From: an uncultured Rubrobacteraceae bacterium
GTDB taxonomy: Bacteria > Actinomycetota > Rubrobacteria > Rubrobacterales > Rubrobacteraceae
NCBI GenBank assembly: GCA_902806065.1
Contig: CADCVE010000058.1
Location: 1-33,236 of the forward strand
Reading direction: 5' to 3'
Length of the DNA stretch: 33,236 nucleotides
A program made the translations under genes and the position numbers. This document shows positions 26,405 through 30,215 of the stretch, one piece after another. The notes beneath the pieces were generated by a model. That model was given only the letters and a program-made list of their open reading frames with translations, was not told the DNA's origin and did no database searches. Numbering within the stretch: the stretch's first letter is position 1; each line of letters opens with the position of its first letter.

Positions 26405-27181
26405 TCACTTGTCGAGTAGTTGATCGGGCCGTAGTTGGTGGCGAGTGGTGAAGAAGGATCGGTAAGATAGCAGCCCAGCCAGGATGGCTGCTATAGAGAC
26501 GCTCCCGAGGAGCATGTACATGACCACTATCTGCAGCCGCGCTGCCTCTAGCGGGTCGGCGCCAGCGATGATCATGCCGACCATCGCCCCCGGTAGAAAG
26601 ATAATCCCCGTCGTCTTCGTGGAGTCTATTAGAGGTAGCATGGCGTTGCGCAGCGCAGTCTTTAGAATGGGAGAGACGGCCTGGCGGCTGGTCGCTCCGA
26701 GCGCCAGGGCTGCCTCCACCTTGAGCCGCTGCTCCGTCAGGTCGTCCCGGACCCTTGCGAGCGTGAGGCTCGTTGTGTTCATGGCGTTTCCGATGACCAT
26801 TCCTCCCAGTGGTATGAGGTAGCGGGCGGTCGCGGGTATGACCTGAAGCAGGAGCAACAGCCCCACAGTAGCCACGGCCGCCACTCCTATAGTCCCGGCG
26901 GCTACCGGTAAGGCGTAAGGCACGCCCCTGGCCCGGCGGGCGGAGGTCCAGGCCGCGAACCCAACCATCCCTGACAGGAGCAGCACGACCGCCACCGGGC
27001 TCTCCAGCCCGAAGATGTAGTTGATCGCATACCCGATAGCCGCGAGTTGCACGAACGCGCGGACCACGGCGATGGCTATATCGCGCTCCAGGTCCAGCCT
27101 CTCGTAGAGGCTCAGGGCCACAGCCACGGCGACGAGTCCTAGAGTGAGAAGGGCCGAGCCGACGGTCTCCAATCCTTGCAC
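26405..27181 (-). CDS. fetB: FetB-type (UPF0014) ABC exporter permease
   Basis: The 258-residue membrane protein has about seven hydrophobic segments. RAFVQLAAIGYAINYIFGLE, then IPLGGMVIGNAMNTTSLTLARV, ALALGATSRQAVSPILKTALRNAMLP and LPGAMVGMIIAGADPLEAARLQIVVMY are the conserved signatures of the FetB/YbbM family. In E. coli FetAB exports iron and protects against peroxide stress. Its GTG start follows the fetA stop directly (TAAGTG). It is the last gene of the chr-fet operon. Confidence 0.88.
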   Translation of the reverse strand: MQGLETVGSALLTLGLVAVAVALSLYERLDLERDIAIAVVRAFVQLAAIGYAINYIFGLESPVAVVLLLSGMVGFAAWTSARRARGVPYALPVAAGTIGVAAVATVGLLLLLQVIPATARYLIPLGGMVIGNAMNTTSLTLARVRDDLTEQRLKVEAALALGATSRQAVSPILKTALRNAMLPLIDSTKTTGIIFLPGAMVGMIIAGADPLEAARLQIVVMYMLLGSVSIAAILAGLLSYRSFFTTRHQLRPDQLLDK

Positions 27182-27889
27182 TTACAGCTTCCCGGAGACA
27201 AATCGTCTCGCTAGCTCGCCCTCTTTGGAGAAGAATTCCTGCTTGCTCCATTCGCCCTCGCTCCGGCCCTCCGCCAAAAGGACGACGCGGCCGGCGACGC
27301 GCTCCACCTGATCCAGGGCGTGGCTTACCAATACAATCGTGAGGTTCAGTCGAGCATTCAACTCCTGAATGAGGTCCTCGATCTTTAAACGGGCTGCCTC
27401 GTCCAGTGCACTCGTCGGCTCGTCCATAAGTAGCACCTCCGGCTCCAGAGCGAGGGTTCGCGCTATCGAGACGCGCTGCTGCTGGCCTACCGAGAGGGTT
27501 TGCGGGTCACGGCTACTCAAGGAAATATCGAGCCCGACGACCTCTAGCAGCCGGGCCGCGTCGGCGTCCTTCCCGGCCAGGCGTGGTCCGTATAGAACCT
27601 CGCTTTCAACCGTCGCCCCGAAGAGCGCGGGGAGCTGAAAGACCATTCCTATCTTACGACGAAGCACGAGAGGGTCCATCCCGCTCGTCGGCGATCCGTC
27701 CAGGTACACTTCCCCGGAGGACGGTTCTATGAGGCGATTGATGGCGCGGAGCAGGGTGCTCTTGCCCGCCCCCGAGGGTCCGACGACGGCGGTAATCTCC
27801 GCCTCCGGAATCCTTGCGCTTACTCCTTGGAGGATCTCCGCTTTGCCCACCGTATACCTGAGGCCGGAGATCTCGACTTCAAGCCCCAC
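27182..27889 (-). CDS. fetA: FetA-type ABC exporter ATPase
   Basis: The 235-residue ATPase has Walker A (GPSGAGKSTLLRAINRL), the Q-loop region IGMVFQLPALFGATVESEVLYGP, the signature LSVGQQQRVSIARTL, Walker B (VLLMDEPTSALDEAA) and VSHALDQVERVA. The size and the FQLPALFG stretch match FetA. The start is a GTG one base after the chrB(C) stop, so it is in the chromate operon. With fetB it makes a two-component exporter, probably of iron or another metal. Confidence 0.85.
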   Translation of the reverse strand: MGLEVEISGLRYTVGKAEILQGVSARIPEAEITAVVGPSGAGKSTLLRAINRLIEPSSGEVYLDGSPTSGMDPLVLRRKIGMVFQLPALFGATVESEVLYGPRLAGKDADAARLLEVVGLDISLSSRDPQTLSVGQQQRVSIARTLALEPEVLLMDEPTSALDEAARLKIEDLIQELNARLNLTIVLVSHALDQVERVAGRVVLLAEGRSEGEWSKQEFFSKEGELARRFVSGKL

Positions 27890-27890
27890 G

Positions 27891-28307
27891 CTACAGCACC
27901 TCCCGGCTCAGGTGGGTGTAGAGGCCGTTGTAGAGGGCATCCGTATGGTAGGTGAGGGCCATGTCATCGGGGAGAGTGAGCTGCATACCACGGACTATAG
28001 AGTCCAGGCCCTCGGATTCGGGGCGGTCGTACTTCTCGTCCATAAGGTCGGCGTCGTGGACTATCTCGGCGATCTCCTGGAGCACGGGGTCTCCAAGTTC
28101 GTACTCCACGAGGAATGTCTCGAAGGAGCAGGCATCGCCGTGATGGGATAGCCGGGCTCCGGCTACGTCGAAGAGTTCCGCGTCCTTGGGAGCCTCCGAC
28201 TGGTCTTCGACGAAGAAGAACTCTGCTTCGGGGTCTACGAAGCGCCGGATCAACCACACGCAAGCCGTCCGGTCTACGTGACAACCTCGGCGCGTCGCCC
28301 AGCGCAC
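27891..28307 (-). CDS. chrB: ChrB C-terminal domain protein
   Basis: The 138-residue protein reads MRWATRRGCHVDRTACVWLI, RRFVDPEAEFFFVEDQ, LFDVAGARLSHHGDACSFETFL and HDADLMDEKYDRPESEGL. These are the hallmarks of the C-terminal half of ChrB chromate-resistance proteins, including conserved His and Cys residues. The start is a GTG overlapping the TAG of the preceding gene (TAGTG). In most described ChrB proteins this domain is fused to the N-terminal one; here the two are separate genes. Proposed roles are sensing or handling of chromate. Confidence 0.85.
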   Translation of the reverse strand: MRWATRRGCHVDRTACVWLIRRFVDPEAEFFFVEDQSEAPKDAELFDVAGARLSHHGDACSFETFLVEYELGDPVLQEIAEIVHDADLMDEKYDRPESEGLDSIVRGMQLTLPDDMALTYHTDALYNGLYTHLSREVL

Positions 28308-28864
28308 TACTTGCCACCTATAGAGTTCCGGGATTGCCCGGCCTCCGTGCCTTCTTTGAGGACTTGCCGAAGCTCGCGGAGAGCCGCAGCTACCTCGTTC
28401 CTTAGGGGAGAGCGGAAGTAGTCCCGCCGTCGCTCGGCCCGGAACTCGCGCTCTAGCTTACGAAGCTCCTCCAGGAGCAGGGATTTGCTGGACCCGAGCG
28501 CGGCCTTGCGTCGCAGGCGACCGGCGGACTCGGCTAACTTCTTGTAGGACGTCTCGCGGGAGGCGCGAAACTCCTCGACGAGCGACCTGCCCTCGGCCAC
28601 TGTATTCGGCAGAGCTTCCCAGAGGGTAGCCTCTCCATCGGCCTCCCGGATGCGGTGCTGAAGCCACTCGAGTTGCTCGCGAGACACGGCGTCCTCGGGC
28701 AAGGCGGCCGCCCCATTCTGGAGGTAGAGGGCACCCAGGGATTTCAGCTTGCGCCACACGGCAACCCGGTGACGGGAGGGTTCGCGGGGGAGGTGGTAGA
28801 TCAGGATGAGCCAGCGCGCCTTCGCCGCGTTCGCTCCCGCGTCGCCTACCCCAGTAGTGTCCAC
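28307..28864 (-). CDS. ChrB N-terminal domain protein
   Basis: The 185-residue protein has ARWLILIYHLPREPSRHRVA, VWRKLKSLGALYLQNGAAALP and VEEFRASRETSYKKLAES, followed by a charged helical stretch. This is the N-terminal ChrB domain, thought to serve regulation in fused ChrB. It starts at a GTG 19 bases inside the chrA end and its stop overlaps the next GTG, so all three chr genes are translationally coupled. If it regulates the operon, the palindrome at 30190-30203 is a candidate target. Confidence 0.82.
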   Translation of the reverse strand: MDTTGVGDAGANAAKARWLILIYHLPREPSRHRVAVWRKLKSLGALYLQNGAAALPEDAVSREQLEWLQHRIREADGEATLWEALPNTVAEGRSLVEEFRASRETSYKKLAESAGRLRRKAALGSSKSLLLEELRKLEREFRAERRRDYFRSPLRNEVAAALRELRQVLKEGTEAGQSRNSIGGK

Positions 28865-30150
28865 AGCATCCCCGCCAGGGCGCCGGCCGGCACCATCAGG
28901 TAGATAGGCACTTTCAATCTCTGCAAGACGACGAATGACACGACCGCGACGACGAGTGCGAAGACATCAAGTGAGGCGAGGCCGTCGGGGAAGAGGACGC
29001 GGCTCCCAAAGAACACGGCGAGGTTCGCGATCACGCCTACAACCGCCGCCGTGACGCCCATCAGGGCGGCCTGCAGGCGGCTGTTATTCGATAGGAGCTC
29101 GATGTATGGGGCGAGCAGGAAGATGAACAGGAAGCAAGGCAGGAACGTCGTGTAAGTCGTGATTGCGGCGCCGAGCACTCCGTAGAGCAGCGGATCGAAC
29201 CCGCTCGGGGATTGGTTCCACGCGCCGAGAAAGCCTACGTACTGGGTGACCATGATCAGGGGCCCCGGCGTGGACTCGGCGAGTCCGAGGCCCTGCACCA
29301 TCTGGTCCGCCGTGAGCCACCCGTACTGATTGACCGCCACATCCGCGATGTAGCTCAACACCGAGTACGCTCCGCCGAAAGTGATAAAGGCCGCCCCCGT
29401 AAAGAATAACGCCTCCCGAAACAGCACGTCTTCCCCTCCACGCCAGACCCAAATAGCCCCCACGGGCACTGCCCAGAGTACGAAGAACGTCCCCAATAAC
29501 CGCAGGTTGCGTAGCGCGGAAGGCCGCTCGCCCGAAGTAGTCTGGTCGAGAACCTCCTCCTCTTCTTCCGCGGTAGCCGAACCGTGCCCACGAGCTCGAA
29601 ACGCATCCGGCACGAAGCGTTGCAGAAGGATGCCGCCGAGTGCGGCAGCGGCCACGACCAGGGGAAATGGGACGGAGAGAAAGTAGATCGCAACGAAGGA
29701 TGCGACGGCGAAGGCCACGAGGGCCGCGTGGTGTAGCGTACGCCTGCCAATCCGCAAGACCGCCTCGACAACGATGGCGATGACGACGGGCTGAACTCCG
29801 TAGAGCAGGCCCACGATCGCGGGTACGTCCGAGTAGGCGACGGATAGGTAACTAAGAAAGAGCAGGACGAAGATGGATGGGATCACGAAGAAGGAGCCCG
29901 CAACGATTCCACCCAGAGTGCCGTGCAGCCGCCACCCGATGTAGGTCGCGACCTGCTGAGCCTCGGGACCGGGGAGTAGCATGCAGAAGTTCAACGTACG
30001 GAGAAATTGTCTCTCGGAGATCCAACGCTTCCTCTCGACCAACTCCCTGTGCATGATCGCGATCTGCCCCGCAGGTCCCCCGAAGTTGATGAACCCCAAC
30101 TTTACCCAAAACCAGAAAGCCTCCTGAAAACCTACCCTCTTGCCTTCCAA
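28846..30150 (-). CDS. chrA: Chromate efflux transporter ChrA
   Basis: The 434-residue protein has two CHR domains and about ten membrane segments. The N-terminal half shows FWFWVKLGFINFGGPAGQIA and MLLPGPEAQQVATYIGWRLH; the C-terminal half shows TFGGAYSVLSYIADVAVNQY and LGLAESTPGPLIMVTQYVGFLG. These paired GGP/PGP-type motifs are diagnostic of long ChrA proteins, which expel chromate. The start is a TTG four bases after GGAGG. It is first of a five-gene operon, and the presence of a sulfate importer nearby gives a route for chromate entry. Confidence 0.92.
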   Translation of the reverse strand: MEGKRVGFQEAFWFWVKLGFINFGGPAGQIAIMHRELVERKRWISERQFLRTLNFCMLLPGPEAQQVATYIGWRLHGTLGGIVAGSFFVIPSIFVLLFLSYLSVAYSDVPAIVGLLYGVQPVVIAIVVEAVLRIGRRTLHHAALVAFAVASFVAIYFLSVPFPLVVAAAALGGILLQRFVPDAFRARGHGSATAEEEEEVLDQTTSGERPSALRNLRLLGTFFVLWAVPVGAIWVWRGGEDVLFREALFFTGAAFITFGGAYSVLSYIADVAVNQYGWLTADQMVQGLGLAESTPGPLIMVTQYVGFLGAWNQSPSGFDPLLYGVLGAAITTYTTFLPCFLFIFLLAPYIELLSNNSRLQAALMGVTAAVVGVIANLAVFFGSRVLFPDGLASLDVFALVVAVVSFVVLQRLKVPIYLMVPAGALAGMLWTLLG

Positions 30151-30186
30151 TCTTCCTCCAGTTCGTCAAGCGCTACGAAGTGTTCT

Positions 30187-30215
30187 ACGGTAACCGCGGT
30201 TACATCAGATGTCAA
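30187..30215 (-). promoter_or_regulatory. chr operon promoter with operator palindrome in the spacer
   Basis: Read towards chrA, TTGACA (30215-30210) and TACCGT (30192-30187) are separated by exactly 17 bases. The spacer carries GTAACCGCGGTTAC (30190-30203), a perfect 14-base palindrome that overlaps the -10 by three bases. The layout is that of a repressor operator blocking a strong promoter. The start of chrA is about 35 bases downstream. Confidence 0.65.

Follow-up and report, generated by a model that had tools for sequence, protein, structure and literature searches.

We consider it quite likely that a perfect 14-bp palindrome in the promoter of the chrA-chrBN-chrBC-fetA-fetB operon serves as the operator for a split repressor, composed of ChrBN and ChrBC, whose action would be relieved by chromate. 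From comparisons of promoter and protein sequences, we judge the dyad to be a real operator and very probably that of ChrB, of a kind for which Ochrobactrum tritici offered a first glimpse, but distinguished by its own sharply defined sequence and by a regulator divided in two. The dyad is a clear candidate for the DNA sequence read by the poorly understood ChrB, the regulator behind chromate biosensors, and with a precise site seen in several phyla, footprinting and structural studies become straightforward. If the proposal is true, it would show how DNA is recognised by a transcription factor that has no discernible helix-turn-helix, through a Cas2-like domain and with the regulator shared between two proteins.

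A palindrome in the chrA promoter

We analysed a stretch of 33,236 nucleotides from an uncultured Rubrobacteraceae bacterium (the window). Its minus strand reads TTGACA-TCTGATGTAACCGCGGT-TACCGT from 30215 to 30187, and the perfect palindrome GTAACCGCGGTTAC (GTAACC-NN-GGTTAC) lies between the two hexamers. The initial annotation had described TTGACA and TACCGT separated by 17 bases with a perfect 14-bp palindrome between them, and we found both the sequence and the coordinates to be correct for the minus strand. It was also right that the palindrome fills most of the spacer; it does not merely touch the -10 element, as had been stated, but overlaps it by three bases (TAC). Because its -10 hexamer matches at only 3 of 6 positions, the chrA promoter is absent from the output of a strict sigma-70 scan; TTGACA-17-TAnnnT occurs twice in the window. 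Behind the promoter, chrA, chrBN, chrBC, and the fetA-like and fetB-like genes form a tight same-strand run, such that the N and C domains of ChrB (PF20229 and PF09828) are both encoded, in contiguous genes, by the candidate operon that the dyad would control. The FetAB-like iron-export ABC genes (26405-27889 in the window) lie within the chr operon in many relatives, and cysC (APS kinase) is convergent beside them in several.

Table 1. Positions, in the window, of the candidate operon's genes and promoter elements
Feature	Position	Strand	Details
chrA, chromate efflux transporter	28846..30150	-	434 aa, TTG start; TIGR00937 E 1.5e-69; PF02417 E 7e-78
chrBN, proposed DNA-binding half (R33, R38)	28307..28864	-	185 aa; ChrB_N domain, Cas2-like fold; PF20229 E 5e-15
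chrBC, proposed chromate-sensing half (R6, R13, H55)	27891..28307	-	138 aa; ChrB_C domain; PF09828 E 2e-45
FetA-like ABC transporter ATPase, operon gene 4	27182..27889	-	domain matches
FetB/UPF0014 permease, final gene of the operon	26405..27181	-	PF03649 E 3e-73
Candidate operator dyad GTAACCGCGGTTAC	30190..30203	none	GTAACC-NN-GGTTAC; proposed ChrB binding site
-35 element TTGACA, chrA promoter	30210..30215	-	TTGA in 19/19 family dyad promoters
Promoter spacer, 17 nt	30193..30209	-	11 nt belong to the dyad
-10 element TACCGT	30187..30192	-	first 3 bases are the dyad's last 3; TACnnT in 19/19 dyad promoters
Ribosome-binding site GGAGG	30155..30159	-	4 nt before the TTG start; direct reading

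The window contains two perfect palindromes of at least 14 bp, compared with 3.0 ± 1.7 in Markov-1 sequences. Since chance should produce some three of them in a window of this size, length alone is no evidence; the palindrome stands above chance because it is conserved and rare, being the only exact GTAACCnnGGTTAC in the 3.75-Mb source genome (112 contigs). A genome-wide regulon was considered and rejected, as there is no second exact site and the one-mismatch site at C26:34623 lies within a coding frame.

Upstream of many chrA orthologs that are 72-91% identical, GTAACCnnGGTTAC is present. A pattern scan found the exact sequence in 13 of 60 related genomes, every one in the family, and the reversed-pattern control gave 0 in all family members. 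There were 19 exact sites in the 60 genomes: 16 before chrA, one before a chrK-like gene (L052), and two inside unrelated coding frames (L054 and L055). Nineteen promoters were gathered via the dyad, including that of an arylsulfotransferase-like gene (L053) with one mismatch, so that constancy of the dyad within this set reflects how it was selected. These promoters share TTGA(C/T), a spacer of 17 bp (17/19) or 18 bp (2/19), and TACnnT with an invariant final T. Selection by the dyad does not account for the fixed spacing to the -35 element or for the unvarying T of the -10, and we therefore regard dyad and promoter as a single conserved unit.

Several loci have further features. The arylsulfotransferase-like gene (L053, 2-1333, minus strand) is divergent and has its own dyad promoter at 1446-1459 (GTAACTGTGGTTAC), which suggests that the chromate response is linked to sulfated compounds. 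A pair of dyads (GTAACCGTGGTTAC and GTGACCACGGTTAC), 28 bp apart, precedes chrA at L103:306-347. One relative (G007) has more chrA copies (C19:243-1492 and C92:59-1304), which are fragmented, the C19 copy with internal stops.

Association of the dyad with chrB

The initial annotation had staked its operator on conservation of the dyad in front of chrA orthologs; relatives do carry the dyad there, and its presence tracks chrB. We compared 20 Rubrobacteraceae chrA loci with both sides readable, which were found via chrA or ChrB_C and some of which were listed with the help of the dyad scan. The exact GTAACCnnGGTTAC was present at 12 of 12 loci with chrBN-chrBC versus 1 of 8 without chrB (Fisher p 1e-4, uncorrected for kinship). 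Presence of chrB requires six scattered changes on the chrA tree, so the association does not stem from one clade. In phylogenetically independent pairs, 3 of 3 supported pairs agreed in nearly all pairings, a number too small for significance alone. Counted by genome, the dyad occurs in 11 of the 16 in which ChrB_C was matched versus 2 of the other 44 (Fisher p 8e-7, uncorrected for kinship). Five ChrB_C genomes have no site; in four of them (G005, G008, G033, and G035) a contig end truncates the upstream region, and the fifth (G059) has only a short ChrB_C fragment.

Loci that have lost chrB form a decay series. The dyad is intact in G009, which has no chrB between chrA and fetA; it carries one mismatch in G006, which retains a chrBC remnant (E 6e-18), and three mismatches at a chrB-less locus of G033 (C70); and it is gone at the chrB-less locus G032:C29, where TTGACT-17-TAGGCT is retained. 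The hexamers can thus outlast the dyad, as expected if the dyad serves a regulator and not RNA polymerase. We conclude from these comparisons that the dyad follows chrB, not chrA.

The association extends to other phyla. At 10 of 50 loci outside the family (Chloroflexota, Acidobacteriota, and Actinomycetota), chrB is closely preceded by an exact GTAAC-N4-GTTAC, versus 0.00 expected, and TGTA-N8-TACA occurs in 13 of these 50 upstream regions versus 0.10 expected, with none at N7 or N9 spacing; the excess is somewhat flattering, because the patterns were picked after some of the sequences had been seen, although GTAACC as a motif was taken from the window. A clear GTAAC-type site is missing at about half of the 50 loci. 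The looser TGTA-N8-TACA also fits several proteobacterial promoters, in which the half-site is GTAG..CTAC. Individual cases include a Chloroflexota locus without chrA (L106) that has the near-exact dyad GTAACCGTGGTTTC before chrBN-chrBC, Dietzia with TATGTAACCATGGTTACATA before a split chrB, an Arthrobacter plasmid (L152) with GTGCAACCATGGTTGCAC before chrBN, and Acidobacteriota with ATGTAACACCTGTTACAT upstream of chrB. In 301 Chloroflexota genomes we found 25 exact GTAACCnnGGTTAC sites, four of them no more than about 0.9 kb away from a match to ChrB_C (G741, G800, G855, and G861; all four were already among the 50 upstream regions). In Actinomycetota outside the family, no exact site was on the same stretch of contig as a match to ChrB_C. 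By eye, the dyad at several Chloroflexota loci stands just after the TAnnnT hexamer, not before it.

Dyads of the same layout with varied half-sites (GATTC, GATAC, and ATAGC) occur upstream of Acidobacteriota chrB (e.g., L122, L124, and L126); they were not counted for GTAACC, and they suggest that operator specificity shifts between ChrB lineages. A wider generalization is possible, although we hold it with somewhat less than even confidence: ChrB proteins of different phyla may recognise a single family of dyads 14-16 bp long (TGTA-N8-TACA, taking the form GTAACC-NN-GGTTAC in Rubrobacteraceae and several Chloroflexota) via a Cas2-like ChrBN with no helix-turn-helix, the version in the window being a two-protein repressor in which DNA reading and chromate sensing fall to different halves.

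A split ChrB as the proposed repressor

According to the O. tritici study (PMC3817168), ChrB binds the chr promoter, reduces its activity without chromate, and dimerises, and neither half is functional by itself. Expression becomes constitutive in the R18A and R23A mutants, and R180A, R187A, and H229A block induction. All five of these functional residues have counterparts in the window proteins: R33 and R38 of ChrBN correspond to R18/R23, and R6, R13, and H55 of ChrBC to R180/R187/H229, none of them varying among the 16 ChrB compared, with numbering matched via the Klebsiella and Alteromonas ChrB. The initial annotation had put forward ChrB(N) as a candidate regulator encoded in the operon, which is supported by the dyad tracking chrB, with the correction that ChrBN and ChrBC are probably both needed, given that neither O. 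tritici half works alone (PMC3817168).

We recognised no helix-turn-helix in ChrBN. Weak matches to the Cas2-like domain PaaX_M (PF20803) were obtained for 9 of 9 members (best E 1e-4). The ChrBN model, which is moderate only (pLDDT 73, pTM 0.48), has a beta-alpha-beta-beta-alpha-beta arrangement with additional helices; with this model the best Foldseek matches, to Cas2 (E 6e-3) and E. coli PaaX (E 0.14), were of low significance, and VIA-align gave a Z near 8, which is within the tool's described background. A sequence search found no solved ChrB structure for either half. The likeness of ChrBN is to the central domain of PaaX; PaaX binds DNA through an N-terminal winged helix, which was undetected in ChrB, and its target sequence is a different one.

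The same genome also encodes a stand-alone ChrB_N protein (G000:C5:17947-18408), which matches PF20229 with E 3e-40, versus E 4e-14 for the operon chrBN. This paralog was rejected as the binder, since it is found in G003, G011, and G019, all of which are dyad-less.

We propose that ChrBN and ChrBC would bind GTAACC-NN-GGTTAC as a twofold-symmetric complex. As the dyad takes up most of the spacer and reaches into the -10 element, ChrB seated there would block the access of RNA polymerase to the promoter. Chromate would be sensed via the conserved Arg/Arg/His of ChrBC and repression lifted, and the derepressed operon would supply exporter together with more ChrB, closing a negative feedback loop. 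Here we infer binding, stoichiometry, repression rather than activation, and the chromate response. Evidence against a ChrB repressor comes from G009, which keeps the dyad without detectable chrB. In Arthrobacter sp. FB24, the presence of the chrB genes (and chrK) raised chrA expression under chromate, and uninduced levels were similar with and without these genes (PMC2751784), which argues against simple repression there.

It is unlikely, in our judgment, that the dyad instead serves some other regulator, whose gene lies elsewhere in the genome (e.g., TetR-, MarR-, or LacI-like), with ChrB acting at a different place. Such a regulator would fit the want of a classical helix-turn-helix in ChrBN, the presence of the dyad without chrB in G009, and the report that mutating the proposed repeat of the O. 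tritici promoter did not abolish ChrB binding (PMC3817168), but chrB is the cis gene common to dyad loci in Rubrobacteraceae, Chloroflexota, Acidobacteriota, and Dietzia, the dyad decays upon chrB loss in the family, and the stand-alone paralog sits in dyad-less genomes.

Slightly less probable again is that ChrB binds the dyad but activates with chromate, in the manner of MerR, by realigning the promoter. The site is located inside the spacer, as this would require, but MerR promoters have spacers of 19-20 bp, whereas those of the dyad promoters are 17 or 18 bp, with 17 bp in the window, and a MerR-family gene is absent from the operon. Position after TAnnnT in several Chloroflexota loci means that the dyad's placement is not fixed and fits occlusion better than realignment. 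Stronger chrA induction with chrB in Arthrobacter FB24 (PMC2751784) would favor activation, but the O. tritici promoter is on without ChrB (PMC3817168). Finally, although some three perfect 14-bp palindromes are expected per window, the idea that this one arose by chance in a GC-rich promoter has next to no probability and is rejected by conservation, as the dyad is exact in all 12 chrB-bearing chr promoters of the family, recurs in other phyla, and has a reversed control of 0 in the family.

Known chromate determinants

In the literature searched, which included few subscription papers, we found no mapped ChrB operator. The proposed ChrB operator resembles the TnOtChr determinant of O. tritici 5bvl1, in which an inverted repeat lies over the -10 of the chr operon in the ChrB-bound region, the promoter there being chromate-inducible, and within the published repeat lies GTAGTAACATCTAC, a dyad of equal size with the form GTA-N8-TAC (PMC3817168). 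It differs in that ChrB there is a single protein whose gene is first in order, and the inner sequence is GTAG..CTAC there and GTAACC..GGTTAC in the window; only the outer GTA-N8-TAC frame is common, so we regard the window's operator as a variant, an identical sequence not being strictly required of a member of the family. In that study, the one detailed account found, the exact ChrB contacts were not mapped and ChrB still bound the mutated promoter (PMC3817168); the inner GTA-N8-TAC of the repeat might explain this binding if the mutations hit the outer arm.

The determinant of Arthrobacter sp. FB24 is likewise actinobacterial, with ChrB split into N and C proteins and a YVTN propeller gene, chrK; it differs in gene order and in that chrB raised induction there (PMC2751784). 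A term search of that paper gave no operator for this determinant. In L052 (1788-3060), the dyad promoter occurs a second time, in front of a YVTN beta-propeller gene that resembles the Arthrobacter FB24 chrK and lies directly upstream of chrA.
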